DNA of 59,889 nucleotides from positions 1 to 59,889 of IMG/VR virus record IMGVR_UViG_3300010371_000040. One strand, written 5' to 3'. The notes beneath the pieces were generated by a model, which saw only the letters and a list, made by a program, of their open reading frames with translations, did no database searches and was not told the origin of the DNA. Of the stretch, positions 260 through 59,889 are shown piece after piece. How positions within the stretch are numbered: position 1 is the stretch's first letter; every line of letters starts with the position of its first letter. The DNA comes from a virus. A program made the translations under genes and the position numbers.

Positions 260-688
260 TTATCTCCTCAATTTGGTGGTGAAAGGGGCAAATATCTCAA
301 CGACGCGCGCGCACTTCGCCGCGTCGAAAAACTCAATGTCGCACCGCTCGCTGGCAGGCAATTGCATCTGCTCGCGGAGCCATTTGTAGGCGTGCCCCTG
401 CGCGCGGAAATAGCCGATGTTGTCCCGCCTGGCAGCCGCGCGGACCAGCCAGTCGAAATGCTGGTGCGCCGCCTCGCGAGCGGCCCGCAGATCGGCATCG
501 GCCATCGTGCCCAGCGGACGCTCGGTCTTCGCCTGCGCACCGATCCAGGCCGCGTCACCGGCGCAGTACCAGAACTTCTTGTCCGCAAGATCCTGGTCTC
601 GCCGATCGCCATAGATCACCGAGCCGGCGACCAGCACGGCATCACCGCCGCAATACGGGCAGATCGGGGGCGAGACGGGCTTGACCAT
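260..688 (-). CDS. DUF3268-type zinc-finger protein
   Basis: A 142-residue protein with an N-terminal CPYCGG zinc knuckle (about residues 11-16) and a second Cys in FWYC. The RPLGTMADADLRAAREAAH segment follows, then a C-terminal FDAAKCARVVEIF. This order (CPYCG, RPLGT-LAD-ELR, KxAYxWL, CRxVVE) is characteristic of the DUF3268 zinc-finger family found in phages and prophages; function is unknown. It sits between the 689-1609 gene and the repeat gene at 257 with almost no spacing, so it is part of one minus-strand operon. Confidence 0.75.
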   Translation of the reverse strand: MVKPVSPPICPYCGGDAVLVAGSVIYGDRRDQDLADKKFWYCAGDAAWIGAQAKTERPLGTMADADLRAAREAAHQHFDWLVRAAARRDNIGYFRAQGHAYKWLREQMQLPASERCDIEFFDAAKCARVVEIFAPFTTKLRR

Positions 689-1609
689 TCAGCGCCGGGC
701 CTCAGGTCGCTTTTTCGTGCACCAATTGCACTCCGCGACGTAGCAGTGATCCCGGCCAGCGCACGCCTTGGGGAAATTGCATTCGACATAGGGAGGCCGT
801 TGCGCCTCTGGAGTCGAGTTGTAGAGTTCCAGCTTCCGTGCATATCGCTCGCGCGCCAATATCCATGCTTTAGGCTCATCCCATTCCGGCTTGAGCGGCT
901 GCAGGCGGATGCCGTTTCCTTCATCCACCGCCGCGAGCCGCAGATGTGCAGCGAACCGCGCGAAGATCGGAATGAAAACCTCCTGCCGAAGGAACAAGCC
1001 GCCCGTGCCGACGTGCTGATGCCAGGGCCTAATCCAACGCGGGCGCGTCAAGGAACGCAGATAATAGTCGTCCTTGGTGTTGATATAGGCCAGCTCAACG
1101 AAACCGGCGGGGCATGGCCCATGCCAAGGGCCGCGCATGGTTGCCTCGGCTCCATCGGACATCAGAATGTCGATATGGGCACCGGCGAAACCATCCTCTT
1201 GCCTTGTGCAAAGGCGCTCGACGTCGCGCCACTCACCGGGCTCGATTCCCCAATTGTCCCCCTGATCTGGATACTGCTTCATCTGGCCTTCGGGGGTGAA
1301 AAATCGCTTCACCGTATCCATCACGAGCGGGCTGCTCTGATAATAAGCCTCGGCCCGGCCATCGTCCGACACCGCGAGGAATAGGCTCTTGTCTCGCGTG
1401 AACCGCTTGTTCTCCCATTTGCGTAGGTTCGTGTTCGTTTTCAGCGTGAACCGAGGAATGTTGCCGAAGCCGTCACCCCACCATATATGCAGGCCGGTCG
1501 CCCACGTGGGAATTTCCTGACGGCCGATCGGCAGATCGATCACGCTCCACGACGGATCGCCTTTGTATCCGATGCGGATCGAATGCGACTGCTCATCAGA
1601 ACAAAACAA
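689..1609 (-). CDS. Conserved-looking hypothetical protein with C-terminal Cys cluster
   Basis: The frame stays open further upstream, but the Cro-like gene begins on the other strand at 1715. I therefore place the start at TTG 1609, preceded by CCGGGAGA, giving 306 residues. The start is uncertain. The protein is Trp/Arg-rich with no membrane segment, and its last 40 residues carry five or more cysteines (CNFPKACAGRDHCYVAECNW), suggesting zinc binding. I do not recognise the family. It is the first gene of the minus-strand arm, directly facing the control region. Confidence 0.65.
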   Translation of the reverse strand: MFCSDEQSHSIRIGYKGDPSWSVIDLPIGRQEIPTWATGLHIWWGDGFGNIPRFTLKTNTNLRKWENKRFTRDKSLFLAVSDDGRAEAYYQSSPLVMDTVKRFFTPEGQMKQYPDQGDNWGIEPGEWRDVERLCTRQEDGFAGAHIDILMSDGAEATMRGPWHGPCPAGFVELAYINTKDDYYLRSLTRPRWIRPWHQHVGTGGLFLRQEVFIPIFARFAAHLRLAAVDEGNGIRLQPLKPEWDEPKAWILARERYARKLELYNSTPEAQRPPYVECNFPKACAGRDHCYVAECNWCTKKRPEARR

Positions 1610-4530: not shown

Positions 4531-5075
4531 CCCCGCGCGCCGGCGCCCTCTGCCTTGATCTGGGCAGCGACTGTGGTTGGGCCAGGGAGCGCCCCGGCCT
4601 TCCGCCGCGCCTCGGCACGTGGAATCTCCGCGCTCCATCGAAGCATCCGGGCGCGATGCTCTGCAACCTCACGGACTTCCTGTGGGATCATTGCAGCGAT
4701 GACCCGCCCGAGAAGATCGTCTACGAAGCGCCGTTCATGATGATCCCCAAGCAGGGCGACAAGGCGATGGGAAATGCCGCGACGCTGGAGCACCTCCTGT
4801 GCCTCACAGCGCCGGTGAAGATGATGGGCTGCCGTCTCTCGATCCCGGTCTATCTGATCGCGGTCAGCAGCGCGCGCAAAGGGTTCTGCGGCAACGGGCG
4901 CGCGACGAAGGAAGAGGTCTATGAAGAAGCCGTACGACGCGGATGGAACCCGGCCAACATGCACGAGTCGGACGCCGGAGCTTTGAGCGATCAGTACCAG
5001 CAGCTTTTCCATCCCGAAGAGTGGGCGCGGTGCAATCCGGGACTCGCGGCGGCGCGGGCGTATAGGAGGCGATGA
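4527..5075 (+). CDS. RuvC-like Holliday-junction resolvase
   Basis: A 182-residue RNase H-fold nuclease. The N-terminal LCLDLGSDCGWA places the first catalytic Asp at D11. VYEAPF supplies the conserved Glu and HESDAGAL the C-terminal acidic pair. Length and motif order match phage RuvC-like resolvases that trim branched DNA before packaging. It overlaps both neighbours by ATGA-type junctions, inside the replication/recombination block. Confidence 0.75.
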   Translation: MTPRAGALCLDLGSDCGWARERPGLPPRLGTWNLRAPSKHPGAMLCNLTDFLWDHCSDDPPEKIVYEAPFMMIPKQGDKAMGNAATLEHLLCLTAPVKMMGCRLSIPVYLIAVSSARKGFCGNGRATKEEVYEEAVRRGWNPANMHESDAGALSDQYQQLFHPEEWARCNPGLAAARAYRRR

Positions 5076-17887: not shown

Positions 17888-18096
17888 GCGACATCGCCGT
17901 CACCGATGCCATGCGCCGCGCCGGTATCGCCGCCTTCCGCGCATGGTGCCAGGGCGATTGCCCCGACGACCTCGGCGTGTACGACTTCATCTATCTGGCG
18001 ATGGAACGGGCGCGGATGGAGGGCGAGCAGGCGGCCAGGGATGCGCGGTTGTCGGCGAGGGACGCCACCTCCTGCGATGACGTGCCGCCAGCATGA
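17884..18096 (+). CDS. Hypothetical small protein, 70 residues
   Basis: Coupled by ATGA. Helical and acidic (AMRRAGIAAFRAWCQGDCPD ... YLAMERARMEGEQAARDA). Its place two genes before the large terminase would suit a small terminase subunit, but it is short and I see no specific similarity. Confidence 0.55.
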   Translation: MSDIAVTDAMRRAGIAAFRAWCQGDCPDDLGVYDFIYLAMERARMEGEQAARDARLSARDATSCDDVPPA

Positions 18097-18265
18097 ACAG
18101 AATTTGGGGTCGCTGCGGGTTCCAAAGGGCGGATGACCACGCCCCGCAACGGCCGTCCACGCTAACCGCCGGTTCCCCAATCTCGATCACGACCGGCGGC
18201 GTGCGCAAACGCGGCGGCGACGCAAGATATACACGCGAATGGACGGCAACGGTTATGGTGCAAGG

Positions 18266-18418
18266 ATGATCGAACTTCCCCGCCGCAAGTTCCTCACCGG
18301 CCTCGGCGCGCTGATGGGCGCGGGTGCCGAGCAGGCGGTGCTTTTCGCACTCGAGCGCTGCATCTATGCCGGCGGTGCCGTTCAGGTCGTGCGCTTGAAG
18401 GGGCAGCCCGGCGAATGA
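18266..18418 (+). CDS. Small protein with Tat-like RR motif, 50 residues
   Basis: MIELPRRKFLTGLGALMGAG resembles the twin-arginine signal pattern (RRxFL plus a moderately hydrophobic stretch). I recall similar tiny proteins directly before the terminase in alphaproteobacterial podoviruses. Nothing resembling a folded passenger follows. Coupled by ATGA to the terminase. Confidence 0.6.
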   Translation: MIELPRRKFLTGLGALMGAGAEQAVLFALERCIYAGGAVQVVRLKGQPGE

Positions 18419-20313
18419 GCGATTTCAACTGGGACGCCCTGCAGGAAGGCTTCTATGACTTCCTTTCTCACGTCCAAATTCTGAGTAAGGACGAGGGCCG
18501 CGTCCGCCTGCGCATGTACGACGCGCAGCGCTATTTCTTCGATGAGATTTTCGACGGCCTTCGCAACGACATCCACTGGTTCGTTTGCGGCAAGGGCAGG
18601 CAGCTCGGGATCACGACCGCATGCCTGATGTTCGACACCTTCTACGCCGGCGCCATGCCCGACGTGCAGGGCGGCATCGTGTTCGATACCACCGACAACA
18701 AGGAGAAGTTCCGCAAGCTGCTCGACGAGATGATGATGTCTCTGCCGCCGAGCCACGCGCTGCCGATCCGCAAAGGGGGCAACAACCGCGCCGGCATCAC
18801 GTTCGAAAACGGCAACATGCTGGACTACCTCGTCGCCGGCATCAAACGCGGAACCGGCACGCTCGGCAACTCCCGTGCGCTCAATTTCAGCCACGCGAGC
18901 GAATGCGCCTACTACGGCGACAGCGAGGCGGTGCAGGCATACAAGAACGTGCTGTCGGACGTGTTCCCGACCAGGCTGTACATCTTCGAGTCGACGGCCA
19001 AGGGGTACAACCTGTTCTACGACCTGTGGGAAGAGGCGGTCGCCGACGAGGTTGCCAAGAAGGCGATATTCATCGGCTGGTGGCGCAAGCGGACCTATAG
19101 CCACGCCAAGGGCACGCCGCTATTCCAGCGCTATGGGTGGCCGAAACTATCCGACGACGAGCGCGAGCGGTCCAAGATCGTTGATGACCTTTACGGGGCG
19201 AAGATCACGATTGAGCAATGGGCGTGGTATCGCCATCGCGCCGATCCGGCCGGACGCGCGAACGAGGAAGAGAACCAGTCCGAGCAGCGCGAGATGGTCG
19301 CGCAGGAGCATCCGACCCATCCCGAGGAGATGTTCCGCGAATCGGGCAACCCCTTCATCCCGTCGCAATATCTCGACCCGGCGATGAAGATCGCGCAAAA
19401 GGCGATGTTCAAGGGATACCGCTATCACCTCGGCGACGACATCTCGACCATGCGGCTGGAAAAGACGAAGTTCGTCAACCAGACGCAGATGCGCGTGTGG
19501 CAGGAGCCGTCGCCCACAGGCGTCTATATCGTCGCCGCCGATACCGCGTTCGGCATATCCGACGACGGCGATGCGCAATGCGCCCAGGTCGTGCGCTGCT
19601 ACGCCGACAAGATGGTGCAGGTCGCCGAGTTCTGCGACCGCAGCGTGCAGCCGTTCCAATTCGCGTGGATTCTGCTGCACCTATGCGGCTGGTACGGCGA
19701 CTGCCGGTTTATCCTTGAGCTCAACGGCGCCGGCGAGGCGGTGTGGACCGAACTCAAGAACCTGAAGCAGCGGGTCGAGAACGGCTCGCTCTATCCACCG
19801 CGGCCTTTCCCCGGCGACGACCCGAACGACGAGGACACCGCCGAAGCGCGCAACACCTATGCCCGGGTGCGGCAGTACCTGTTCCGGCGATCGGACAGCC
19901 TGGGCGGCGGCATGAACTGGCAGATGAGGACCAGCCTCGAGACCAAGTTCAATTTCATGACGCAGTTCGCCGACCGCTTCATGCTCGGCCAGTTCGATAT
20001 TTTCTCGGTGCCGGCGCTGAAGGAAATGCAGACGCTGAACAAGGACGGCCGCATGATCCACGCGGCCGGCAAGGGCAAGGACGACCGCCCGGTTACGCTC
20101 GGGCTGGCGACGCGGGCCTATATCGACGATATTCGCGCGCAGCTTGTCGGCAAGAACATGACGTTCGAGGCCGAGGAACTGAAGGCCCGCGAGGGCGGCG
20201 AGACGTTGCACGGGCGGTTTCTGAGTTCGATCATGGAGCGACAATTCGCGCTGAAGGCGGCGGACAGGCGGGCGGTGACGCGGCGCAAGCAGGGCAAGAA
20301 TTGGTCATGGTGA
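18415..20313 (+). CDS. terL: Terminase large subunit
   Basis: A 632-residue packaging motor. N-terminal ATPase: the variant Walker A VCGKGRQLGITT lies at 57-68, followed by GGIVFDTTDNKEKFRKLLDE, and GTLGNSRALNFSHASECAYY carries the Walker B/catalytic Glu region. The C-terminal RNase-H nuclease starts at VAADTAFGISDDGDA, with later acidic residues in FILELNGAGEAVW. Size and order match podovirus TerL proteins. It heads the late region and is followed by a zinc-ribbon protein and the portal. Confidence 0.9.
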   Translation: MSDFNWDALQEGFYDFLSHVQILSKDEGRVRLRMYDAQRYFFDEIFDGLRNDIHWFVCGKGRQLGITTACLMFDTFYAGAMPDVQGGIVFDTTDNKEKFRKLLDEMMMSLPPSHALPIRKGGNNRAGITFENGNMLDYLVAGIKRGTGTLGNSRALNFSHASECAYYGDSEAVQAYKNVLSDVFPTRLYIFESTAKGYNLFYDLWEEAVADEVAKKAIFIGWWRKRTYSHAKGTPLFQRYGWPKLSDDERERSKIVDDLYGAKITIEQWAWYRHRADPAGRANEEENQSEQREMVAQEHPTHPEEMFRESGNPFIPSQYLDPAMKIAQKAMFKGYRYHLGDDISTMRLEKTKFVNQTQMRVWQEPSPTGVYIVAADTAFGISDDGDAQCAQVVRCYADKMVQVAEFCDRSVQPFQFAWILLHLCGWYGDCRFILELNGAGEAVWTELKNLKQRVENGSLYPPRPFPGDDPNDEDTAEARNTYARVRQYLFRRSDSLGGGMNWQMRTSLETKFNFMTQFADRFMLGQFDIFSVPALKEMQTLNKDGRMIHAAGKGKDDRPVTLGLATRAYIDDIRAQLVGKNMTFEAEELKAREGGETLHGRFLSSIMERQFALKAADRRAVTRRKQGKNWSW

Positions 20314-20525
20314 GAATGTCTAAGGGCCGCCTTCGTGCCGACGAATTGGTCAAGCTGGCGCTGAGCGAAGGGCACAAGCTTCCGTTGACGCCAGTGCTTG
20401 ATTTTCAACGGGTCGCCATGGCAACGCTGGTCCGCTTCGAAAGCGGCATATTCAGCATCCACGACAACGGGTGCGTGTTCGAGATGGCAGACGAGTATCC
20501 GAGCAGGCCGATACGCAAGGTGTAA
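20307..20525 (+). CDS. Hypothetical small protein, 72 residues
   Basis: ATG 20307 overlaps the terminase end; ATG 20316 is an alternative. Basic N-terminus, then beta-like segments (MATLVRFESGIFSIHDNGCV). No domain recognised. Confidence 0.6.
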   Translation: MVRMSKGRLRADELVKLALSEGHKLPLTPVLDFQRVAMATLVRFESGIFSIHDNGCVFEMADEYPSRPIRKV

Positions 20526-20527
20526 TC

Positions 20528-21115
20528 ATGGGTTATTTGGTCCGGACATATGAATGCGACAACGGCGGCGAGGGCGAGCCTCACCAGTTCGAGATGATGA
20601 TCAAGTCGGACGAGCATCCGAGCTTCTGCCCGACGTGCGGCAACCCGATCGAGGACGTGAAGGTCATCCCGGGGACGAAGCATGTTGGCAAGTCGAACAT
20701 CAACAAGGCCGTCGACATGACCTATCGGGCGCTGGAGGAAAGCTCGGCCGTGCGCGCCGAAGCCGCCGGCAACCCGAACTTCAAGATCACGAACATGAAG
20801 GACAACCTTCGCGAAGGTGATGTCGCCGCGATGCCGATTCGCAACTCTGTGACCCAGTTCATGGACGAGGCTGGGAGCCAGGGCGCCAAATTCGGATGGG
20901 GCGGCGGTGCGGCGGCGGCCAGTTCGGCGCCGATCGCGCAGGTCAACCCGAATTTCAAGGCGCAGGCCGGTGCGGTGAAACCCGACGGCGTGCTCAACGG
21001 CATGACCGGGCCCGGCCACGTCGCGCTATCCGCCATCCAGGGCGACCGCGGACAGACACACATCGGCAAACGCGCGGAACAGGTTCACGCGGGCCGTCTC
21101 AACAAGGGAACATGA
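20528..21115 (+). CDS. Zinc-ribbon phage structural-region protein
   Basis: A 195-residue protein from ATG 20528. N-terminal FmdB-like ribbon: YECDNGG ... SFCPTCGNPIED. The remaining part is low-complexity, Gly/Ala/Asn-rich with no enzyme motif. Zinc-ribbon proteins of this kind commonly lie between terminase and portal in phage genomes; the role is unknown. Confidence 0.7.
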   Translation: MGYLVRTYECDNGGEGEPHQFEMMIKSDEHPSFCPTCGNPIEDVKVIPGTKHVGKSNINKAVDMTYRALEESSAVRAEAAGNPNFKITNMKDNLREGDVAAMPIRNSVTQFMDEAGSQGAKFGWGGGAAAASSAPIAQVNPNFKAQAGAVKPDGVLNGMTGPGHVALSAIQGDRGQTHIGKRAEQVHAGRLNKGT

Positions 21116-21116
21116 C

Positions 21117-21977
21117 ATGTCATACCTATGCATCTACCACGCGAATTGCGCCGATGGCTTCGCCGCCGCCTGGGTCGTTCACCGCGCTCTCGGCGATCAG
21201 GTCGAATTCCACGCCGCGACCTATGGCGACACGCCGCCCGAGGTCATCAACAAGCACGTACTGGTCGTCGATTTCTCGTACCCGCTCGAAGACCTGACCC
21301 GTATGCAGTCTCGGGCTAACAGCGTGATGGTGCTCGACCACCACAAGACTGCCGAGGCCGATCTGCGCGACATCGAGGCCGGATCGGCGTCGTTCCACAA
21401 TCACGATCACGTCGGTCTACGGGCGATCTTCAATCAGACGACTTCCGGCGCGGGCCTCGTATGGGATTGGTTCAACCCGGGCGATCCGAGGCCGCTGATC
21501 ATCGACTACGTCGAGGACCGCGACCTGTGGAAGTTCCAGAAGGACCACTCGCGCGAAATCAACTCCTTCATCTCCACCATCGAAGATGACTTCGGGGTCT
21601 GGGATACGGAGGCCGAATCGCTTGAAGACGATCTCGGCTTTGAGATGGCCCGAGGGATCGGTCACACACTCGAAAAGTGGAAGCGGGAGTACGTCGACGA
21701 TGCCGTCAGCGCGAGCAAACGCATCATGCGGATCGGCGGCCACGATGTTCCGTGCGCGAACGTGCCGTTCCGCATGGCTTCCGACGCGGGCAATCTTATG
21801 TGCAAGGGCAATCCGTTCGCGGCCACGTATTGCGACACGGAAAAGGGGCGCGTATTCAGCCTGCGCTCGACCGACGCCGGGCTCGATGTGTCCGTTGTCG
21901 CCAAGTCCTACGGCGGCGGCGGGCACCGGAATGCCAGCGGATTCAAGATGCCGATCGGCTGGGAAGGAGACCTGTAA
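21117..21977 (+). CDS. DHH-family phosphoesterase
   Basis: A 286-residue enzyme. The DHH domain shows YHANCADGFAAAW (Asp13), VVDFSYP and VLDHHKT, the acidic/His ligands for two metal ions. DHHA1 follows, ending in AKSYGGGGHRNASGF, the GGGHxxAxG motif. The family includes nano-RNases (NrnA), RecJ and pyrophosphatases; length fits the NrnA-like group. It lies in the morphogenesis block, perhaps recycling short RNAs or nucleotides. Confidence 0.85.
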   Translation: MSYLCIYHANCADGFAAAWVVHRALGDQVEFHAATYGDTPPEVINKHVLVVDFSYPLEDLTRMQSRANSVMVLDHHKTAEADLRDIEAGSASFHNHDHVGLRAIFNQTTSGAGLVWDWFNPGDPRPLIIDYVEDRDLWKFQKDHSREINSFISTIEDDFGVWDTEAESLEDDLGFEMARGIGHTLEKWKREYVDDAVSASKRIMRIGGHDVPCANVPFRMASDAGNLMCKGNPFAATYCDTEKGRVFSLRSTDAGLDVSVVAKSYGGGGHRNASGFKMPIGWEGDL

Positions 21978-22330
21978 TGTCGGACCTCTACATCGTCACC
22001 GTCACGCTGACCACGAAGACGCAGCATCAGCTTTTCTTCGACACGCCGGGGAAGGCGCGCGATGCGTATGCCGCTCTGACGCACAACCAGACGCACCTGA
22101 ATGGACCGGCCGCCGTGCAGATCGAGGACGATTACGGCTGCAACATGAGCCTGCGCTGCATGGACATCGTCGCCGTCGAGGAACGCAACTGGACCCGTCA
22201 GCAGGAAAGCCAGGTCGAGGCGCAGCTGCATCAGGCGCGCGCGCAGGCCAGGGGTCAGCGCCGCGCGGCATCCGACCCTGAACTGAAATTCTTGGCATCC
22301 GCTCCGCAGCCGGGCATGTTGAGGGCATGA
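21977..22330 (+). CDS. Hypothetical protein, 117 residues
   Basis: ATG 21977 directly overlaps the DHH stop. Beta-rich first half (LYIVTVTLTTKTQHQLFF) and a helical Gln/Arg-rich end. No recognised motif. Confidence 0.65.
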   Translation: MSDLYIVTVTLTTKTQHQLFFDTPGKARDAYAALTHNQTHLNGPAAVQIEDDYGCNMSLRCMDIVAVEERNWTRQQESQVEAQLHQARAQARGQRRAASDPELKFLASAPQPGMLRA

Positions 22331-22348
22331 AACCGCTCCGGTGCCGAC

Positions 22349-24046
22349 ATGCTGCTGCCATCCAGTGACCGCCTCGCCCGCTGGGCCAAGGAACGGGTGA
22401 TCGACCAGTGCCGCAGCAGCGTCGGCGATCGCATGCAGATGGCCCGGTCGATCAACACATGGCGATTCACCGGCAGCGATAGCGGGTCACAGGCGATCTA
22501 TAACCGCCTCGGAACCCACTGCGATAAGCTCTCGTCCGCGGTGTACTCGCCGGCCGACGTCCGCTACCAGATCGAGTACGAGTCCGACTATGGATCGATC
22601 TTCACGGACAGAGCCAAGGTCGCGGCCCGCTATCTGACGCGCGAGATCGCCCAGCGTAACCTCGACCTGTCGTTCCAGGAGGCCGTGGAGGAAGCCGTCC
22701 CGCTCGGTTGCGCGATCCTCAAGCACATCTGGACGCACCACGGCCCCGACGTCACCACGCTGATGCCGTGGCAGTTCGGTGTCTATAACGAGGCGGAAAC
22801 GGATCTCGATAAGCAGGAGGCGATGTGCGAGACGACCTACTTGCTGCCCGAGGAAGTCTGGCGCCGCATCAGCCACCGCTCGGACGCCAAGGAACTCTTC
22901 CGCCGGATCATGTCGCACTCCCGCCGTGCGTCTCAGGATGAGGTTCCGCCTGGCTTCATGCACCAGCTTCTGATGGCTGGCACCCCGCCGCTGATCCAGG
23001 ACCAAGGCGCGGCATCGAGCCCCGGCGGCATGATCTCGCTCACCGGCACGCCGGCGGTTGCGATGATGGCCGCCGAGATGCAGGACGGTCTCATCGAGGC
23101 GCACCAGGCGTGGGTGGTGAACGACGAGACCGGCGACTACACGACGATCCAGCTCATCGAGCCGGACATCCTGATCGCGCCGCGGCTGATCCGCTCGAAC
23201 CTGTTTTTCCCGCACGAGCACCCGTTCAATGTCGTGCGCGTCAATCCGCAGCGGAACTACTTCTGGGGCATGTCCGAGCTCTCGCAGTTGATCAAGCTCC
23301 AGGCGCTGCTGCGCGACCGCACCGAGGACGTGAAGAAGATCATGGGCCTCCAGTACGACCGTATCCGCGCGTTCATCGGCTTCTCGGGCATGAACGATGA
23401 GAAGTACGACCAGATGACCAACGAGGGGTGGCTGTCTGAGGAAAACCCCAACGCGAAGATCGACGACCTGACGCCACCGCTGCCCGAGAACGCATTCAAC
23501 GAGATCAAGATGATCATCGATTTCTTCGATGAGATCGCCGGGTTCGATAATGCGACGTCGGGCAAGGGCGAGCCGGGCATCCGGTCGGCGAACCACTTTC
23601 AGGGCGTGCTTCGGCAGGCATCCCCGCGTCTGCGCGACCGCGCAATCCGGGTCGAGCGCCAGTGCGCGGAGTTCGGCGAGAAGGTTTTGTGGCACTGCGC
23701 CGCGAAGGACGCCCGGGTTTTCTGGACGAAGACCGACGATCCGGAGAAAAAGACCGATTTCCTGCTGTCACAGCTTCCCGATGACGCTCGCGTGCTGGTC
23801 GACAGCCATTCCGCGAGCCCGATCTACGAGCAGGACCATGCGAATACGGCGGCGTTTTTGTTCAAAAGTGGCGCCATCGACAGCGAAGATTTGTTGAACC
23901 TTCTTCCGGTACCAAACAGAGATTTTCTCATCGAGAAACTTAAAAACAGGGAAATATCGAAGCGCCAGATGCTGGAGAGTCTTCCGCCCGAGCTACGCGC
24001 CCAAGTCATTACCGGAAAGACCGTCAGCCACGCCGGAAAGCATTGA
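22349..24046 (+). CDS. Portal protein
   Basis: A 565-residue protein in the place and of the size expected for the podovirus portal. It shows the helical wing, the PWQFGVYNEAE segment, DYTTIQLIEPDILIAPRLI and the long helical KLQALLRDRTEDVKKIMGLQ stem region. The end (PPELRAQVITGKTVSHAGKH) is basic. It lies three genes after the zinc-ribbon protein and is followed at once by a strong hairpin and the foreign minus-strand cassette. Confidence 0.85.
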   Translation: MLLPSSDRLARWAKERVIDQCRSSVGDRMQMARSINTWRFTGSDSGSQAIYNRLGTHCDKLSSAVYSPADVRYQIEYESDYGSIFTDRAKVAARYLTREIAQRNLDLSFQEAVEEAVPLGCAILKHIWTHHGPDVTTLMPWQFGVYNEAETDLDKQEAMCETTYLLPEEVWRRISHRSDAKELFRRIMSHSRRASQDEVPPGFMHQLLMAGTPPLIQDQGAASSPGGMISLTGTPAVAMMAAEMQDGLIEAHQAWVVNDETGDYTTIQLIEPDILIAPRLIRSNLFFPHEHPFNVVRVNPQRNYFWGMSELSQLIKLQALLRDRTEDVKKIMGLQYDRIRAFIGFSGMNDEKYDQMTNEGWLSEENPNAKIDDLTPPLPENAFNEIKMIIDFFDEIAGFDNATSGKGEPGIRSANHFQGVLRQASPRLRDRAIRVERQCAEFGEKVLWHCAAKDARVFWTKTDDPEKKTDFLLSQLPDDARVLVDSHSASPIYEQDHANTAAFLFKSGAIDSEDLLNLLPVPNRDFLIEKLKNREISKRQMLESLPPELRAQVITGKTVSHAGKH

Positions 24047-24066
24047 GGGGAGGCTTTCGCCTCCCC
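24047..24066. terminator. Perfect hairpin between portal gene and pentamer array
   Basis: Stem GGGGAGGC pairs perfectly with GCCTCCCC around a TTTC loop. It starts just after the portal stop and sits at the far (3') end of the minus-strand pentamer tract. There is no T-run on either strand, so it may be a pausing or RNA-end-protecting hairpin rather than a classic terminator. Confidence 0.6.
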
Positions 24067-24450
24067 TCCCCTGCCTGACCAGACCTCTGCTCACCGCGCC
24101 TCGCGATACCGCACCCCGGCGCAGCTTGCCAAGCCAAGCCAAACTCTAAATCTCTAAAATAATCCTCGCCGCACCTATCCATTGCACACCTCACCGAGGC
24201 CGTCCTTGCCCAGCACCGCCCTACAGGACCAAGCCGCGCCGAAACTGAAATTGATAAATAAATCCTCGCCAGACCACACCCGGCCACGGCTGACCAAACA
24301 CTGCACCGCCACACCCAATTCGACCTTGGACCGCCGGACCTAAGCCCGCCATTCCACGCGCAACCCTGCCGAAGCATTCCGCGCCTAGCCTTGCCTAACA
24401 CCGCACAACCTCGCCGGGCCATGGCTAGCCAATCCCAGCCGTGCCGGACC
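24067..24450 (-). repeat. In-register pentanucleotide tract (GGNNN on the minus strand), probable structural RNA
   Basis: Cut into 5-mers from 24061, the plus strand gives about 78 units to 24450, of which I count 51 ending in CC; several more end in GC. The register never slips. Two A/T-rich blocks of exactly 20 nt (24141-24160 and 24241-24260) interrupt it, and each is followed by the same ten bases AATCCTCGCC (24161-24170 and 24261-24270). On the minus strand this is (GGNNN)n starting right after the stop of the gene at 24453. It is not a protein gene: the open frame has no sensible composition. I suggest a transcribed RNA. Confidence 0.75.
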
Positions 24451-24452
24451 CC

Positions 24453-25076
24453 TTATCCTGCCTCAATCGAAAAGTTGGAAATGCCGAAACGACCGTAAGT
24501 CGGCCGGAAATCGCCGACGCCGACCAGACGACCAGCGGACTCGATGGTCTCGCGCAGGTCGTTGGTCGAAATGTACTCAGGTAGGCCGCACATCAGTTGG
24601 ATTTCGGCGGCCCAACCCGCCCGCATCGCAGGACGCGTGCGCGTGATCGCCGACCGTTGAATGACGACCCGCCGCCGATCCTCGTAGTCCCAATCCGGGG
24701 TTCCGAGAGAGGCCAATTCGGTCAGGCTGACGATCCCGGCGTTGAATAAATCCATCGCCGACTTCCGGGGGCTGCGCGGGTCCTGACGGAACTTCGCCGC
24801 CATCACGATCGACCGCCGCAGGTATTCGCCGGGCAGGCAGAGCATCCCCGCCTCGTCGCGGTAGACGTAGCTTTCCAGATCGTCGCTCTTTTTGGCCGCG
24901 CTGTTCTTCGCCGCCTTCGCCTTGGTCTCGACGGCCTCCGAATTCCACCGATGGAACAGGATCGCCGCCGATCCCACGATTGTGACGCGCGCGATGTACG
25001 GCTCGCTGAGTGCGATGTCCGAGTTTCCGCCGGGCGAAACGCCGTCGATGACCTTCAATGCTGCTGACTTTGCCAC
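24453..25076 (-). CDS. Cassette protein with RAMP/Cas7-like C-terminal motif, 207 residues
   Basis: GTG 25076 is chosen because AGGAG lies 7 bp before it. A likely strand (YIARVTIVGSAAILFHRW, 27-44) is followed by a Lys/Ala-rich loop, LCLPGEYLRRSIVMAAKF (79-96), PRSPRKSAMDLF, a basic strand VVIQRSAITRTRP and finally AGRLVGVGDFRPTYGRFGI (181-199). The Gly/Arg end resembles the glycine-rich loop of RAMP (Cas7-like) RNA-binding proteins, but I cannot confirm homology. Its stop codon abuts the pentamer tract, suggesting protein and RNA belong together. No nuclease motif is visible. Confidence 0.6.
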   Translation of the reverse strand: MAKSAALKVIDGVSPGGNSDIALSEPYIARVTIVGSAAILFHRWNSEAVETKAKAAKNSAAKKSDDLESYVYRDEAGMLCLPGEYLRRSIVMAAKFRQDPRSPRKSAMDLFNAGIVSLTELASLGTPDWDYEDRRRVVIQRSAITRTRPAMRAGWAAEIQLMCGLPEYISTNDLRETIESAGRLVGVGDFRPTYGRFGISNFSIEAG

Positions 25077-25160
25077 TTGCAATCTCCTTGCCTAAAAACG
25101 CCATATGTCGTATGGCTCGCGCATTGCTATTAGCACTACGTATTGCAGGGAGCAAGCATT
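25077..25160. promoter_or_regulatory. Divergent control region of the cassette
   Basis: An 84-bp gap between the minus-strand RAMP-like gene and the plus-strand ribbon-helix-helix gene. It contains the inverted repeat CCATA-tgtcg-TATGG (25101-25115), a size and shape suited to a ribbon-helix-helix dimer. For the minus strand, TTGCTC with TAATAG 17 bp downstream is a weak promoter candidate. Autoregulation by the RHH protein is inferred. Confidence 0.5.
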
Positions 25161-25316
25161 ATGTCCGAGAAAGTCGCGGTAACCTTCCGCATCGAGAAAA
25201 AGCTGAGAGACCAGCTTGAGAAAATCGCACATTTCGAGCGCCGGACGATGACCGGCGTCATTGAAGCGATGATCGATGATCGGTGGAAGCAGACGCCGGA
25301 CGGGAAGGCCGACTAA
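25161..25316 (+). CDS. Ribbon-helix-helix regulator, 51 residues
   Basis: ATG 25161 preceded by GGGAG. The sequence VAVTFRIEKKLRDQLEKIAH then RRTMTGVIEAMIDDRW matches the MetJ/Arc/CopG fold: a beta strand, a helix, a turn and a second helix. Its stop overlaps the convergent KTSC gene's stop. It diverges from the RAMP-like gene and probably controls it. Confidence 0.75.
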   Translation: MSEKVAVTFRIEKKLRDQLEKIAHFERRTMTGVIEAMIDDRWKQTPDGKAD

Positions 25317-25591
25317 AACTGCGGCTTGTTCGTCTGCTCGAACGGCACTCGCTTCCGCACCAACGCATGCAGCGCACTCCCGATGCTCTCGGCACCCATG
25401 ATCTGCGCCGCCGTATCAGCATCGATGCCAGGATAGAAACCCTTGTTTCCCGCCGGGTTCTTGACCGTCGGCGCGAAGTGAACGTGAAGCTGTTGCGCCT
25501 GTGCGTCGTACCCGATTTTCAGGATGTGGCTTGATAGCACTTCCTGCATCTCGACGGGCGGCGGGGCGGGTTGCTGATTTTCTTCGTCCAT
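25313..25591 (-). CDS. KTSC-domain-like protein, 92 residues
   Basis: ILKIGYDAQAQQLHVHF, then FYPGIDADTAAQIMGAES and IGSALHALVRKRV follow the KTSC pattern (IxxxGYDxxxxxLxVxF ... YxxVPxxxxxxLxxAxSxGxxxxxxIR). KTSC domains occur alone or fused to enzymes; function unknown. Last gene of a three-gene minus-strand unit. Confidence 0.6.
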   Translation of the reverse strand: MDEENQQPAPPPVEMQEVLSSHILKIGYDAQAQQLHVHFAPTVKNPAGNKGFYPGIDADTAAQIMGAESIGSALHALVRKRVPFEQTNKPQF

Positions 25592-25593
25592 CT

Positions 25594-25827
25594 CTAGCCT
25601 CTAAAGTCTCCGAGTTCGGAAATCATCCGTTCTATTTCTGGATCGACCGACAACATCGAAAGGCACTCAACTGGCGGCTGCATCTCTAGCCGCCGCCCAA
25701 TTTCATATGCGAAATTATCGGACGCTTTTTCGAATTCAGACCACACACCGGCCCGAACATCGAGACGCCCAGATGCGATAGTCGGATACATCTCTTCCAA
25801 GAGTTTCAGCTTGCCGGGTGTGAGCAT
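25594..25827 (-). CDS. Hypothetical protein, 77 residues
   Basis: ATG 25827 (MLTPGKLKLLEEMYPTIA), with an in-frame TTG at 25851 as an alternative. Helical and acidic. Packed between the HTH gene and the KTSC gene with 1-2 bp spacing, so it is co-transcribed. No known domain. Confidence 0.6.
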   Translation of the reverse strand: MLTPGKLKLLEEMYPTIASGRLDVRAGVWSEFEKASDNFAYEIGRRLEMQPPVECLSMLSVDPEIERMISELGDFRG

Positions 25828-25828
25828 G

Positions 25829-26011
25829 TTACCCGTGCCGACACCCCTCAAGGTACTTGTTCACGTCTTCCGGCATGAAGTGATATCGGCCCTGAACCTT
25901 GTAGTACGGCGGGCCGTATCCGTTGCGCATCCAGGACCGGAGAACCTGCAGGCTGACCCCGAGAATCGATGCCGTGTCCTTCGGTTTCAGGCTTTTGGAC
26001 ATATCGACCAT
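25829..26011 (-). CDS. MerR/excisionase-like HTH protein, 60 residues
   Basis: ATG 26011 lies behind AAGGG. KPKDTASILGVSLQVLRSWM then YKVQGRYHFMPEDVNKYLEG is the helix-wing pattern of AlpA/Xis-type HTH proteins. It heads the three-gene minus-strand unit of the cassette and is a candidate regulator or excisionase. Confidence 0.7.
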   Translation of the reverse strand: MVDMSKSLKPKDTASILGVSLQVLRSWMRNGYGPPYYKVQGRYHFMPEDVNKYLEGCRHG

Positions 26012-26213
26012 TTCGAAACCCTTCCGAGCGCTGACCGTCACTAATGCGAGCAAATATCACCTTTCGCGCGCTTGAACAATTAGATGCTCGCCGGATAGTT
26101 GCCCGAGAAATCAGCGGTCTCTCTGGGCTTTCGCCTCCGGCGCTACGTCGGGCGAGGTATCGAGGAACCCTCCGAGCGCCGTTGATGGCAACGCCAACCC
26201 AAGGAGAGAAGGA

Positions 26214-26255
26214 ATGAAGCGTCGTCGCCATTCCGGCCGTAAGGGCCGCCGGTAA
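26214..26255 (+). CDS. Possible 13-residue basic peptide
   Basis: A nearly ideal ribosome site (AAGGAGAGAAGGA) is followed by ATG and a 13-residue frame, MKRRRHSGRKGRR. It resumes the plus-strand structural operon after the cassette. Such a short peptide could be real or a leader for the next gene; a strong site with no other start argues for translation. Confidence 0.4.
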   Translation: MKRRRHSGRKGRR

Positions 26256-26260
26256 TCCGG

Positions 26261-26701
26261 GTGCCTCCGCTTCCGCCACAACTCGCAGCCGCCTTGGCCG
26301 GGAAATCCCCGGCCGCAGGTGCAGGCTCGGCACCGGGTCAACCTCCCTTTGGTTCCTCCCCGATGACGGCGCCCACACCGAACCGCGGCATGCAAGGCGA
26401 GGGCCTGTCCCTCGTGGCGGAAGCGAAGCGCATGCTCGAAAAGGCATTGTCGATGCCGGGCCTGGGTGCCGAAACCGACATAGGACAGGCGATCCTCAAG
26501 TCGCTCGAAGCCATCGGCAAGGTTTTGCCGGAAGGCACAGTCACTCCGGGAATGCGCGATGCCGGCATGCAGCAGTGGATGATGCAGGGCCGCCGCGAGA
26601 ACCCGATGGCCGCAATCATCGCGGCGCTTCAGGGCGGTGGTGGAGGCGGAACGCCCGCTGCCCCCGCGCCCGGTGGCGCCGAACTTCCCGCCGCCGCATA
26701 G
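26261..26701 (+). CDS. Structural-operon protein, 146 residues, GTG start
   Basis: A Pro/Gly/Ala-rich N-terminus (LPPQLAAALAGKSPAAGAG), a central helical part (LVAEAKRMLEKALSMPGLGA ... AILKSLEAIGKVLP) and a Gly-rich end. It lies between portal and scaffold in the late operon. It probably takes part in head assembly, but no specific family is recognised. Confidence 0.65.
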   Translation: MPPLPPQLAAALAGKSPAAGAGSAPGQPPFGSSPMTAPTPNRGMQGEGLSLVAEAKRMLEKALSMPGLGAETDIGQAILKSLEAIGKVLPEGTVTPGMRDAGMQQWMMQGRRENPMAAIIAALQGGGGGGTPAAPAPGGAELPAAA

Positions 26702-26719
26702 CAGCAGAGGACTACACCA

Positions 26720-26887
26720 ATGGCTAAGGATATGTTCGGGTCGTTGCCCACCGGCATCCCGAAGAACAGCAACCAGGTCGAGCGAGTCGACCTGACCCAG
26801 GCGGACATGGGTGCCCGCGCTTCGCATATGCCGAAGCTGGAGAAGAACCCCAAGAACGCCGTCAAGCACGTGACGCAGGGGCGGTAA
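26720..26887 (+). CDS. Hypothetical small protein, 55 residues
   Basis: ATG 26720, immediately preceded by ACTACACC (26711-26718), one of the dispersed motif copies. The product is polar and basic at its end (KNPKNAVKHVTQGR). No known domain; coupled to the scaffold-like gene. Confidence 0.6.
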   Translation: MAKDMFGSLPTGIPKNSNQVERVDLTQADMGARASHMPKLEKNPKNAVKHVTQGR

Positions 26888-26888
26888 C

Positions 26889-27524
26889 ATGGCGCTGATC
26901 GAGATCGAAGACAGCATCGCCGCCGAGCTCGCCAAGAACGGCATTCGCTACACCGACGCCAGCACGACCTATAAGGGTGCGCGCGAGTCCCAGGCCGCGC
27001 TCGCCAAGATTATGGGCGGCCCGCAGCGGATGGAGTTTCTGAAGCTGTACAAGGCAGCGTTCCCGGACGCAGTCGTGCCCGAGCTCGATGCCGCTGCGCC
27101 CGTCAATGATGCCGTCGCCGCGCTCGCCAAGGAATTCTCGGACTATAAGGCCAGGGTCGAGGAAAAAGAGACCGAGCGCGAGAAGAAGCTGCGCGAGGAA
27201 TCCGCTTCGCAGACCGTCGCGAACGGCCGCAAGATGCTCCGCACCGACAAGAAGCTCGATGACGAGGGCGTCGATGCGGTCGAGAAGATCATGCTCAAGC
27301 ACGGCATCCAGGACTACGAGGTCGCGTTCAAGGTGTTCAACGCTGATCGCGAACCTGACCCGCAACAGCTTCCGTCCAGTTGGGCAGGCCGCTCGCTCGA
27401 CTGGTTCGAGAAGCAGGAGAACAAGCCCGACCAGGAACTTCTGCTGAAGGATCCCGCCGCGTTCAAGCGGCAGGAAATCGGCAAGGTCTTGGCCGAGGCC
27501 CGCGCCGGCAAGCTGGCGGCATAA
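26889..27524 (+). CDS. Scaffold-like head assembly protein
   Basis: A 211-residue, highly charged, largely helical protein with a coiled-coil stretch (ALAKEFSDYKARVEEKETER) directly before the capsid gene. That composition and position are typical of scaffolding proteins. No protease motif is present. Assignment is by position and composition. Confidence 0.6.
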   Translation: MALIEIEDSIAAELAKNGIRYTDASTTYKGARESQAALAKIMGGPQRMEFLKLYKAAFPDAVVPELDAAAPVNDAVAALAKEFSDYKARVEEKETEREKKLREESASQTVANGRKMLRTDKKLDDEGVDAVEKIMLKHGIQDYEVAFKVFNADREPDPQQLPSSWAGRSLDWFEKQENKPDQELLLKDPAAFKRQEIGKVLAEARAGKLAA

Positions 27525-27536
27525 AGGAGAAACGCA

Positions 27537-28559
27537 GTGACCTTCCCGCTTTCCGGAACTGGCATCGCACCGACAGGGCCAGTCTTCAGCGAACTCAACG
27601 CCCTGACGCGCCGCGCATTCATTCCGACGGTGGTCACGCAGCTCTATTTCTCGAGCCCGTCCCTGTTCATGCTGATGGGTGCGGCCCAACGCGCGGCCGG
27701 CGGCCTCAACCAGATCACGGTGCCGGTGCAGGGCCAGTCGATGGTCCAGGGTGCCTGGACCGGCTATGCGGGCAACTTCAACAGGCCTCAGGTCATCCCC
27801 GGCGTTCAGCCCGCCCAGTGGATGCTGAGCTACTATACCGTCCCGGTCCCGCTGGTCATGGGCGAGGCGCTCATCCAGTCGACCGAGGCGATCGTTCCGA
27901 TCATCGACGTCCGCATGAACGACGTGTACGCGGTGATGGCGCAGCAGTTCTCAAGCGCGCTGTTCAGCAACAACTCGGCGAATTCGCTGATGCCGCAGGG
28001 TTTCGTCGAGGCATTCGACGATGGCAGCCAGGTGCCGGTCTACGGCGGCATCGCGCGCAACCAGGGCGGAAACCAGTTCTGGCAGTCCAACCGCATCACC
28101 AATGTCGGCGCCAACAACACGCGCGCCGCCTGGTCGACCTATCTGATCCAGGTGACCAAGCTGGCCGGCGGCGAGACGCCCGATTTCGTGCTGATGTCAC
28201 CCGGCGACTTCGCCGTCCTGGCGGCGCAGTTCATCGGTGTCGAGCAGATCAACATACGTCCGGGCCAGCAGTTCACGATGGACACGAACATCCGGTCGGG
28301 CTTCCCGAACGTGATGATCAACGGGGTGCCGTTCTTCCTCGACTACTCGTGCCCGACCGGCACGGCGTATATGGCGAACAGCAAGTATTACGCCATGCAT
28401 ATCAGTGAGGACGCGCAGTTCGACTTCACCGGGTTCTATAGCCTTGTTCCATTGGGGCAATTGGCCGTCGTAGGCGTAGCTTACACCGGGTATAATGTGA
28501 TTTGCTCAAAGCCCGTTTCTGGTGCAAGTTTCAGTGGCATCACTGGGGCGCCATTTTAG
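27537..28559 (+). CDS. Major capsid protein
   Basis: A 340-residue protein from GTG 27537, 12 bp after the scaffold-like gene. It shows an N-terminal arm, FIPTVVTQLYFSSPSLFMLM, a long helix region (AVMAQQFSSALFSNN) and a beta-rich core ending in GQLAVVGVAYTGYNVICSKP. Length, composition and place between scaffold and connectors fit an HK97-fold capsid protein. Its stop overlaps the convergent HNH stop. Confidence 0.8.
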   Translation: MTFPLSGTGIAPTGPVFSELNALTRRAFIPTVVTQLYFSSPSLFMLMGAAQRAAGGLNQITVPVQGQSMVQGAWTGYAGNFNRPQVIPGVQPAQWMLSYYTVPVPLVMGEALIQSTEAIVPIIDVRMNDVYAVMAQQFSSALFSNNSANSLMPQGFVEAFDDGSQVPVYGGIARNQGGNQFWQSNRITNVGANNTRAAWSTYLIQVTKLAGGETPDFVLMSPGDFAVLAAQFIGVEQINIRPGQQFTMDTNIRSGFPNVMINGVPFFLDYSCPTGTAYMANSKYYAMHISEDAQFDFTGFYSLVPLGQLAVVGVAYTGYNVICSKPVSGASFSGITGAPF

Positions 28560-29236
28560 GACTTGCGATTACTTAGTAGTGCCTCTGCAATAGAGTACAT
28601 GTCTTCATCGGTAGTTGAGCCCTTGAAGGCATTGAGTGACCAAAGGATGAACCGGCAGTTCGACTGCACATATCCGAGCTTCGGCTCGATCTTGTCGATG
28701 GAAGGGTGAAAGGTAAAAGGTGTTCCTCCGGGCATACCAATCGCGAATGGGATATTTGAAAGCTCGCATCGGCCAGTCCAGCGGGCTAAAGCCCATTCTG
28801 CCGTTAGGTCGAAAGGCATTCCTCGCTTTTCCGCCCGCCTTCGCACGCCATCCAGCAGGGGCTTCCACGGCTCTTCCAGCCTCCGTTGCTGGTACTGCAC
28901 CTTTCTCCGGCCATTATCAGCATGGCGATAAGCCTCGTGAAGCCGGTAATAATTCCTGGTTTTCCAGCGGTTTCTGCATTCAAAGCAGCAGAACTTCTGC
29001 GTTCGCCTTGTTTGCACGAGCGGGCGCTTGCATTCCAGGCATTCTGTCTCGGCTAGCGCAGGTTTTCCGGCGTTTCGTTTTTCGCGCTCTGCGGCCAATC
29101 TCGCGTCTCGATGGCGCAGATAGCATTGGCGCTGCTTATATCGAAGTCTGCACTTCTTGCCACAGTAAAGGCGAGTTGAGATGCGCGTCTGAAAAGATGA
29201 TCCGCATTGCTGGCAGTTTCGTTCCTCAAGCTTCAT
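28556..29236 (-). CDS. HNH-type homing endonuclease with zinc knuckles
   Basis: A 226-residue protein from ATG 29236 (GAGGA upstream). N-terminal knuckles: NCQQCGSSF ... YCGKKC and TECLECKRPL ... FCCFECRNRW. The C-terminal nuclease has the phage HNH phrase HPSIDKIEPKLGYVQSNCRF followed by LWSLNAFKG. It is the only minus-strand gene between the capsid gene and the next structural gene, of lower GC than its neighbours. A mobile, self-spreading gene is likely. Confidence 0.8.
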   Translation of the reverse strand: MKLEERNCQQCGSSFQTRISTRLYCGKKCRLRYKQRQCYLRHRDARLAAEREKRNAGKPALAETECLECKRPLVQTRRTQKFCCFECRNRWKTRNYYRLHEAYRHADNGRRKVQYQQRRLEEPWKPLLDGVRRRAEKRGMPFDLTAEWALARWTGRCELSNIPFAIGMPGGTPFTFHPSIDKIEPKLGYVQSNCRFILWSLNAFKGSTTDEDMYSIAEALLSNRKS

Positions 29237-29280
29237 TCCGTCCTCACGGGATTTTTGCCTTCGTAAAAGGGGTATCATAA

Positions 29281-30162
29281 ATGGCGATAGGTGGCCAGGG
29301 TTTGGCTTTGCCCTACCCGCAGTCTCTCAACCCGGTCCCGTTCAACTTCGCGCAGCAGCCGATCGGTCGCACGTTCGATCTGGTCGCGGGCGCGGCGGTG
29401 CTGATTCCGTCCGGGACCTGGATGATCTTCTCCAAGAACGGCTATTCGGTCGTGCAGTACCTGTCGCCGGTGAGCGGCGAATGGGTGCCGCTGGCGAGTT
29501 CGCCGCAGACCACGGGCTTCGTGTTCGTATCGTCGGATGGCGTGAACTTCCGCGTCTGGAACCCGAAAGGCTTCCCGATCAGCGCAACCGTCACCGGCGC
29601 CGGCAGCGGCTACGTGCAGTCCTCGACCACCGTCACCGCCGGTTCGGGCGGCTCGCTGTGGCACGCCATCGTCGGCGGCGCGGTCAACAGCAGCGTCACC
29701 ATCGGCGCCGACGCGAAGGGCAATGTCGGCGGGTCGAATTTCACCCTGCCGCCCACGCTGGTCGTTCAGGCCCCTCCGGCGCAGTTGCAGAACCTGCCGT
29801 CGACCGCCACCGCACAGGGCGGCGTCGCCTGCACGATGACCTGCACGATCAGCGGCGGAGCGATCAACGCCGTGACGGTCGATGCAGCGGGCGCGGGCTT
29901 TCAGTCGGCTCCGGTCGTCCAGGTGATCCCGAACCCCTTCGACCCGAACATCGGTTCGATCACGGTGCCGACGCTGACGACCACGCTGACCGGTTCGGGC
30001 ACGATCACGGCGGTGCTGCTGGACTTCTTCGGCACGGCCTCCGGGTCGGCACCGACGCTGACGATCGCCGGTGCGGGTTCGAGCGCGACGGCGACCGCCA
30101 ACATCGTGGCGACCGCGGCCACGGATACCGTGACGATGCAGCAGGTTCCGAGCGGCATCTAA
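29281..30162 (+). CDS. Virion protein with GSGY-type module
   Basis: A 293-residue, Gly/Thr/Ser-rich beta protein following the capsid gene. It starts with a defined domain (ALPYPQSLNPVPFNFAQQPI ... GTWMIFSKNGY) and then has repetitive segments (TVTGAGSGYVQSSTTVTAGS) related to those in the proteins at 31655 and 32865. Probably head decoration or connector; specific role unknown. Confidence 0.65.
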   Translation: MAIGGQGLALPYPQSLNPVPFNFAQQPIGRTFDLVAGAAVLIPSGTWMIFSKNGYSVVQYLSPVSGEWVPLASSPQTTGFVFVSSDGVNFRVWNPKGFPISATVTGAGSGYVQSSTTVTAGSGGSLWHAIVGGAVNSSVTIGADAKGNVGGSNFTLPPTLVVQAPPAQLQNLPSTATAQGGVACTMTCTISGGAINAVTVDAAGAGFQSAPVVQVIPNPFDPNIGSITVPTLTTTLTGSGTITAVLLDFFGTASGSAPTLTIAGAGSSATATANIVATAATDTVTMQQVPSGI

Positions 30163-59555: not shown

Positions 59556-59889
59556 TTCGCCCGCGCCTCGACTTCCGCGATGATCTTTTCCGCGAGGTCA
59601 CGGCACTGCGATCCCGTGCGCCAATGCGCGCGTGACTCGTCGAAAGTGAACCAGCGGCAGCCGGCGCTGATGCGCCAGGTGCCGTCGCGCAGCGGAACGC
59701 CAAGAAAGCGATAGCCGCGGAGATCTTCGCCGCCATCGATGAGGGCGGTCAGGCCCGGGTTGTTCACGATCCAGACGTCGGTGGCGCCCGACAGGTCCGG
59801 CAGGGCGGTCAGGCCCGGGTTGTTCACGATCCTGACGACGGTGGCGCCCGACAGGTCCGGCAGGGCGGTCAGGCCCGGGTTGTTCTCGA
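59552..59889 (-). CDS. Leucine-rich-like repeat protein, C-terminal part (enters from window end)
   Basis: Continues the gene starting at 257. From 59889 the frame reads repeat units NNPGLTALPDLSGATDVxIx, then the C-terminal domain GYRFLGVPLRDGTWRISAGC-RWFTFDESRAHW, known from many phage LRR-type proteins. Overlapping the window ends by 55 bp keeps the frame; joining them end-to-end does not. Stop at 59552, coupled to the membrane-protein gene. Confidence 0.8.
   Translation of the reverse strand, partial: ENNPGLTALPDLSGATVVRIVNNPGLTALPDLSGATDVWIVNNPGLTALIDGGEDLRGYRFLGVPLRDGTWRISAGCRWFTFDESRAHWRTGSQCRDLAEKIIAEVEARAK
59743..59889. repeat. 60-bp tandem repeats, right end
   Basis: About two and a half copies of the unit also found at 1-180. 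The last 55 bases equal bases 1-55 except for one position (a at 59838, t at 4). Marks the point where a circular or permuted genome was opened. Confidence 0.95.

Follow-up and report, generated by a model that had tools for sequence, protein, structure and literature searches.

The stretch of DNA analysed here, hereafter the window, is a virus record of 59,889 bases. Right behind the stop codon of its portal gene (22349–24046) lies a block of ~1.27 kb on the opposite strand, which comprises a hairpin, three runs of GGYNN pentamers, a gene for a 207-aa protein, an 84-bp gap and a divergent ribbon–helix–helix (RHH) gene. The 207-aa gene (vipr; 24453–25076, minus strand) has a GTG start and encodes a RAMP/Cas7-like protein with the C terminus AGRLVGVGDFRPTYGRFGISNFSIEAG. 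Its stop codon, TAA, occupies 24455–24453, and the pentamer tract starts at this stop codon, as the preliminary description of the locus had stated. Parsed into units on the minus strand, the tract consists of three in-phase runs separated by two AT-rich gaps of 20 nt, i.e., run A (24261–24450; 38 units, 27 with GG), run B (24161–24240; 16 units, 12 with GG) and run C (24071–24140; 14 units, 10 with GG). The count for run C omits two units that lie in the terminator; with these, it has 16 units, 12 of them with GG. Runs A and B have the common ending GGCGAGGATT followed by the AT-rich 20 nt (24241–24260, a tail or a leader, between runs A and B; 24141–24160 between runs B and C), while run C is followed by a terminator-like hairpin, GGGGAGGC-TTTC-GCCTCCCC (24047–24066), in the interval to the portal stop codon. 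This hairpin, for which we have no covariation data, is likely a bidirectional terminator and the 3′ end of the transcript of the tract.

On the other side of vipr, the RHH gene (25161–25316, plus strand; 51 aa) is Arc-like, with Arc-like repressor PHROGs as its best matches (E 6e-5 and 1e-4). The 84-bp gap between the two genes contains the palindrome CCATA-TGTCG-TATGG (25101–25115), a possible operator. Thus, the divergent RHH gene, the gap and the palindrome of the preliminary description are all real. Pfam had no match for Vipr or the RHH protein, and searches of Rfam, at E 0.1 with seven loci (50 kb) and at E 1 with positions 23900–25400 of the window, gave nothing. The window's portal protein has no profile match either, and its label rests on tblastn homology to annotated portal proteins; similarly, we take a large ORF of 632 aa (18415–20313) for the terminase without a profile match. 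The structural region also contains a DHH/DHHA1-like phosphoesterase gene (21117–21977), the Pfam matches of which are below the curated cut-offs. One 60-bp tandem repeat is present at both ends of the record (1–183 and 59742–59889), which is probably a circular genome cut within a repeat. No phage nearly identical to the window over 18000–30000 was found in the phage collection.

By its predicted fold, the 207-aa protein is, with high confidence, of the RAMP/Cas7 type. First, the AlphaFold2 model, built from 58 sequences (57 from related loci plus the window), has a pLDDT of 90.1 and a pTM of 0.82. Second, every one of the 50 PDB matches listed by Foldseek is a chain from a CRISPR RAMP complex, in most cases Csm or type VII; the best is the Csm complex chain 9ash_F (E 4.6e-8). 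Third, VIA-align superposed the model on 8z4l_F, a chain of a type VII complex (Z 13.0, rmsd 4.0, 163 residues), and on 9ash_F (Z 12.4, rmsd 3.8, 161 residues), with an identity of only 6 to 18% across 50 rows. One match among viral models bears the name “Cas system-associated RAMP superfamily protein”. By sequence, Vipr belongs to PHROG 4652 (E 4.6e-18), the function of which is unknown. Residues G182, G186, D189, R191, P192, G195 and R196 of the C-terminal motif are invariant in the 58 aligned sequences. The resemblance of the C terminus to the glycine-rich loop of RAMP proteins had been suggested from the letters alone, and the proposed comparison with Cas7 and Csm3 folds by structure prediction now bears it out.

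Relatives of Vipr are present in Phage DSL-LC04 (59% identity), in Felix O1-like phages, including SUSP1, Medea1 and LESphi2, and in hundreds of IMG/VR contigs; the SUSP1 homologue (H15/H16) is 27.9% identical over residues 69–205. We scanned the loci of the best 80 of at least 511 relatives and of the best 80 of 187 for tracts with at least 9 of 12 GG pentamers in phase within 60 bp, keeping near-identical contigs in both sets. Such a tract lies within 1.5 kb on the strand of the gene in 75 of 82 window-type loci and in 76 of 80 SUSP1-type loci, whereas an equally strong tract on the opposite strand was found in three and none of these loci, respectively. The proposed check that homologues should lie next to a pentamer tract was thus passed almost without exception. 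These data also bear on the possibility that Vipr is a degenerate or orphan Cas7 relative from a class 1 CRISPR system, either left over or acting in trans. The closest solved structures among those listed are indeed Csm3/Cas7-type chains of types III and VII, i.e., class 1 CRISPR backbone proteins with which Vipr shares the overall fold and the C-terminal glycine-rich motif. However, the RNA register at the window locus is 5 nt, guide and fixed letters alternate, and the GGYNN tract is not a CRISPR array; no such array was seen in the locus, and Tandem Repeats Finder, which is not a CRISPR finder, returned three rows in the window and none at the locus. Moreover, Vipr forms its own family, and 151 of 162 loci with such a gene have a GGYNN tract next to it. 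On this evidence from the gene and its locus, the explanation is disfavoured, and we give it next to no weight.

The tract itself stands out clearly from its surroundings. On the minus strand, stretches of 100 bp have in-phase GG in as many as 15 of their 20 pentamers, compared to a mean of 1.55 (sd 1.28) for this strand of the window and a maximum of 8 on the plus strand. A pyrimidine occupies the third position in 34 of 38 units of run A, 12 of 16 of run B and 13 of 14 of run C, and also in all 11 units of run A that lack GG. Across the window clade (214 runs; 3825 units with GG), 88.7% of the GG units have a pyrimidine at position 3, and the letters at positions 4 and 5 are distributed almost evenly; in units without GG, the pyrimidine is still present in ~80%. 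The repeat unit is, therefore, GGYNN and not plain GGNNN, as it had been read initially. Proteins that bind RNA at such short intervals are known: TRAP is oligomeric and recognises an RNA motif repeated approximately every 5 nt. It binds NAG-NN repeats, its fold differs from that of Vipr, and its spacer letters carry no information. Similarly, the GGYNN transcript could be a decoy or a scaffold for assembly of the RAMP protein in which the NN letters are without information. The adjacency of gene and tract and the motif evidence fit this explanation equally well, and the nearly even composition of NN is what is expected of positions that are not read. What speaks against it comes from the content of the NN letters, and is given below.

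A recent preprint (bioRxiv 2026.04.26.720920/PMC13142463; April–June 2026) describes a system with the same architecture. VIPR consists of an ancestral RAMP protein of phages, Vipr, and of vrRNAs with 9 to 16 YNNGG repeats; the NN letters pair with double-stranded DNA with one base skipped, mostly the wobble base of a codon; and the mode of action is repression, directed at competing phages, satellites and other VIPR systems. In the SUSP1 and P. fulva systems, although not in the window phage, the vrRNA was reported to be expressed and to co-purify with Vipr. The preprint also reports that repression is programmable and that silencing is lost once NN pairing is perturbed. It names seven VIPR types and six vap genes; its functional experiments concern type II, its main experimental system is SUSP1, and sRNAs from two further kinds of array were sequenced. 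Among the papers listed by our literature searches, no other was on VIPR, and none listed on Felix O1 repeats was relevant. The idea in the preliminary description that a RAMP protein binds a pentamer RNA agrees with this work; the step, however, is 5 nt and not the roughly six that had been inferred from Cas7 proteins. That the NN letters are a guide to DNA had gone unseen; we infer it from the preprint and from the targets described below.

The window locus matches VIPR in several respects: a phage-borne RAMP protein of ~20 kDa with a G-loop, GGY/NN arrays that adjoin its gene, a code with a 1-nt skip at the wobble base and targets that belong to competing phages or are VIPR genes of other loci. 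In terms of individual traits, the locus is carried by a phage or provirus; the protein has the RAMP fold with an RRM core and G-loop (the thumb domain was outside our scope); fixed GGY with hypervariable NN is met in the window clade; and runs B and C fall within the range of 9 to 16 units. Run A exceeds this range and could comprise several vrRNAs, the ends of which are guesses. At L002:4665–4900, L021:2455–3200 and L046:4708–4750, hairpin-like or repeated spacers separate GGYNN runs and are candidates for vrRNA tails or processing signals. Additional GG-pentamer tracts lie distant from vipr in L038 and L039 (~590–760, minus strand; on the other strand than vipr) and in L009 (1992–2302).

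The window locus differs from VIPR as described in the preprint by its longer run A, by the divergent RHH gene in place of any recognised vap gene and by its portal-gene target, the main text naming satellite phages and prophage regulators. The window Vipr is 26 to 27% identical to the aligned type II-like members, compared to 59 to 60% within its own clade. We clustered the neighbours within 2.5 kb in 62 window-type loci, namely 61 of the 82 clade loci and the window. Apart from ORFs in the tracts, no family occurs in more than five of them, and the 14 largest neighbour families are all without a window ORF. Thus, the window is a new VIPR member that is not of the studied type II and has no recognised vap gene. 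With seven types and six vap genes in the preprint, a VIPR type without vap is possible.

If the NN letters are read with one base skipped, targets at this spacing should exceed those at others. We compared 419 unique runs with 1.17 Mb of fetched loci in which the tracts were masked. Placements with at least 18 of 20 letters numbered 68 at the 1-nt skip versus 2, 8 and 6 at skips of 0, 2 and 3 nt and 4 to 7 in three shuffles. Most of this excess came from a single guide, that of L046; counted per guide, it is modest (12 of 419 versus 2, 6 and 5 at the other skips and 3 to 6 in 1-nt-skip shuffles). The L046 guide (4633–4707) has the opposite-strand code GG GA TT CG CC AC TA GG AG TT, which spells GDFRPTYGRF, the G-loop motif of Vipr. 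It matches the rival vipr genes of L019, L048 and L057 at 20 of 20 letters, the vipr gene of the window at 19 and 64 of 146 vipr genes at 18 or more (pool: 81 of the 82 and 64 of the 80 loci plus the window). The vipr gene of L046 itself, which is the neighbour of this guide, scores 18, with both arginine codons exchanged: the guide reads CG and AG, and the gene has AGA and CGA. We consider this an apparent anti-VIPR guide. Overall, 3 of 419 guides target Vipr at the 1-nt skip, compared to one at the 2-nt skip and 0 to 2 in five shuffles, and the L046 case is the sole one that stands on its own. Immediately behind vipr in L018 (3119–3423) is a GGYNN run of 61 units, a stretch of which matches the part of vipr encoding RPAMKAGWQA at 19 of 20 letters in L026 and at 15 to 16 in its own gene; the own-gene mismatch includes amino acid differences.

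In the window, run C yields the clearest target. Its NN code, TT TT AA GC GG GC AT GA GC GA GA CT CA AG, corresponds to the portal motif (F/L)(F/L)(K/N)AGA(I/M)(D/E)A(D/E)(D/E)L. Three observations connect this guide C to portal genes. First, its core of 20 letters (units 2–11) has five exact matches among 2.9 million IMG/VR viral contigs, and all five fall within portal or portal-like genes and keep the codon register. The best, L171, matches 11 consecutive units; an exact target for all 14 units was not found. The portals of L171 and L167 are homologous to that of the window (33% and 27% identity). Not all labels are equally firm: L167 has no profile match and is called a portal by its 26 to 27% identity to the window portal; L170 is weakly supported (PHROG E 4.4e-5; Pfam SU10_portal E 0.0023, below the cut-off); and L168 and L169, without profile matches, are labelled by their identity to L170 (55%, via L181, which is identical to L168, and 60%, respectively). 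Second, in the portal genes of four kin records (L172–L175), which are 58 to 73% identical to that of the window, guide C matches at 19 of 20 letters in L173 and L174, 18 in L175 and 17 in L172, whereas of 2000 shuffles of unit order none reached 19 and four reached 18. Third, among 50 whole phage records searched with up to three mismatches, three matched, each at one site and always in the portal gene. These three are all the kin records in the set, and no record matched the backwards control pattern. Thus, at the level of sequence, the VIPR trait of 1-nt-skip DNA targets with the wobble base skipped is met by run C and by L046.

These targets weigh heavily against a tract in which NN is not read. 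A mere decoy or scaffold would not account for a guide in codon register that falls in portal or portal-like genes in all five viral matches and in kin alone among 50 records, or for the L046 guide with its perfect score in three rival vipr genes. It is also at odds with the programmable repression and the loss of silencing upon NN perturbation reported in the preprint (PMC13142463). We regard it as very improbable. A VIPR locus in which the match of guide C to portals is a coincidence, i.e., a common word rich in Ala, Gly, Asp and Glu with the real target elsewhere, deserves somewhat more consideration. In bacterial and archaeal genomes, the core of guide C occurs at five places: three archaeal GatD genes, with the same word of ten codons, one portal-like gene (Stenotrophomonas, L181, 100% identical to L168) and one gene for another protein. 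The word is, therefore, not unique to portals. In addition, the window's own portal gene matches at 16 of 20 letters, a level that we estimate chance could give in 60 kb. Against coincidence stand the five viral matches, some in genes only distantly related to the window's, the restriction to kin among the 50 records with an empty backwards control and the absence of any shuffle at 19. We consider coincidence unlikely and infer, without assay data, that guide C is aimed at the portal gene of kin phages.

Runs A and B gave no convincing target in viral contigs or in the 50 whole records. For run A, two 9-unit patterns had 0 and 1 match, the single match being out of codon register, and two 10-unit patterns matched 0 of 50 records. 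At a 2-nt skip, run A matched once at 18 of 20 letters, in L172, a score reached in 0 of 150 shuffles; the triplet register is broken in this match, which is probably due to chance among 12 guide–skip tests. For guide B, a 9-unit pattern had two matches in viral contigs with identical surroundings and out of codon register, which we rejected as chance; it matched 0 of 6 records and, with three mismatches, 1 of 50, equal to the backwards control.

Comparison with the kin also shows what occupies this site in related phages. In L174, the homologue of the window's next gene (25316–25591) lies 5 bp past the portal match, and in L175 it lies ~190 bp from it. L172 (11680–12136; ~0.46 kb) and L173 (11689–13036; ~1.35 kb) have other cargo at this site, suggesting that the position behind the portal gene is a cargo hot spot. 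None of the nine target or kin records, some of which are fragments, yielded a Vipr. From the contents of the site in these four kin and the lack of a detectable Vipr, it follows that vipr, the tract and the RHH gene are jointly absent from kin, and together they appear to be an accessory module. The proposal of a self-contained module of regulator, protein and RNA thus holds for the unit as it is found here, with its flanking genes 5 bp apart in L174; the RHH gene travels with it in this case but does not look like a conserved part of the family.

Altogether, the best explanation of the locus as a whole, and one that we hold to be highly probable, is that it is a VIPR locus with guide C directed against the portal gene of kin, its function being inferred from the preprint (PMC13142463) and from sequence. 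By analogy with that system, the tract would be transcribed and yield vrRNAs; Vipr subunits would line up along the RNA and grip the GGY letters; and the exposed NN letters would base-pair with double-stranded DNA, leaving out one letter in each triplet, usually that at the wobble position, and thereby repress transcription of the target. The decoded target leads us to infer that, upon entry of a related phage into the same cell, guide C would silence that phage's gene for the portal, the connector of head and tail. This suggests that vipr and its guide are a weapon against rival phages.

Guide C lies ~170 bp from the corresponding site in the phage's own portal gene (23858–23899, plus strand, as read off the codons), and the score of 16 is due to codons 4 and 9, which are AGT and AGC (serine) where guide C reads GC (alanine). 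The producer's own portal would escape by virtue of these two serine codons. AGY accounts for 92 of 264 serine codons in nine window genes, so that two AGY codons would occur by chance in ~12% of cases, and the class of arginine pair in L046's own gene (AG, CG) is found in 15 of 78 copies of the motif. The idea of a codon switch, in which AGY or arginine exchange provides escape, is thus suggestive only. Under a code that leaves out the wobble base, silent escape is possible only at the six-fold codons of Ser, Arg and Leu. We raise as a speculation, more doubtful than probable, that the guide and the escaped copy of its own target form a linked killer-and-immunity pair that spreads with the module as a selfish supergene. 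If so, a module that recombines together with the adjacent escaped allele would spread through kin phages.

The window locus is a VIPR member that was found from raw sequence alone, and its decoding provides independent support, from another clade, for the noncontiguous code. In the closest relatives, the natural target inferred here is an essential structural gene; the guide of another phage is aimed, as it appears, at the most conserved motif of rival Vipr proteins. These targets suggest that VIPR works in exclusion among sibling phages, and self-avoidance under a code that skips the wobble base becomes directly testable.
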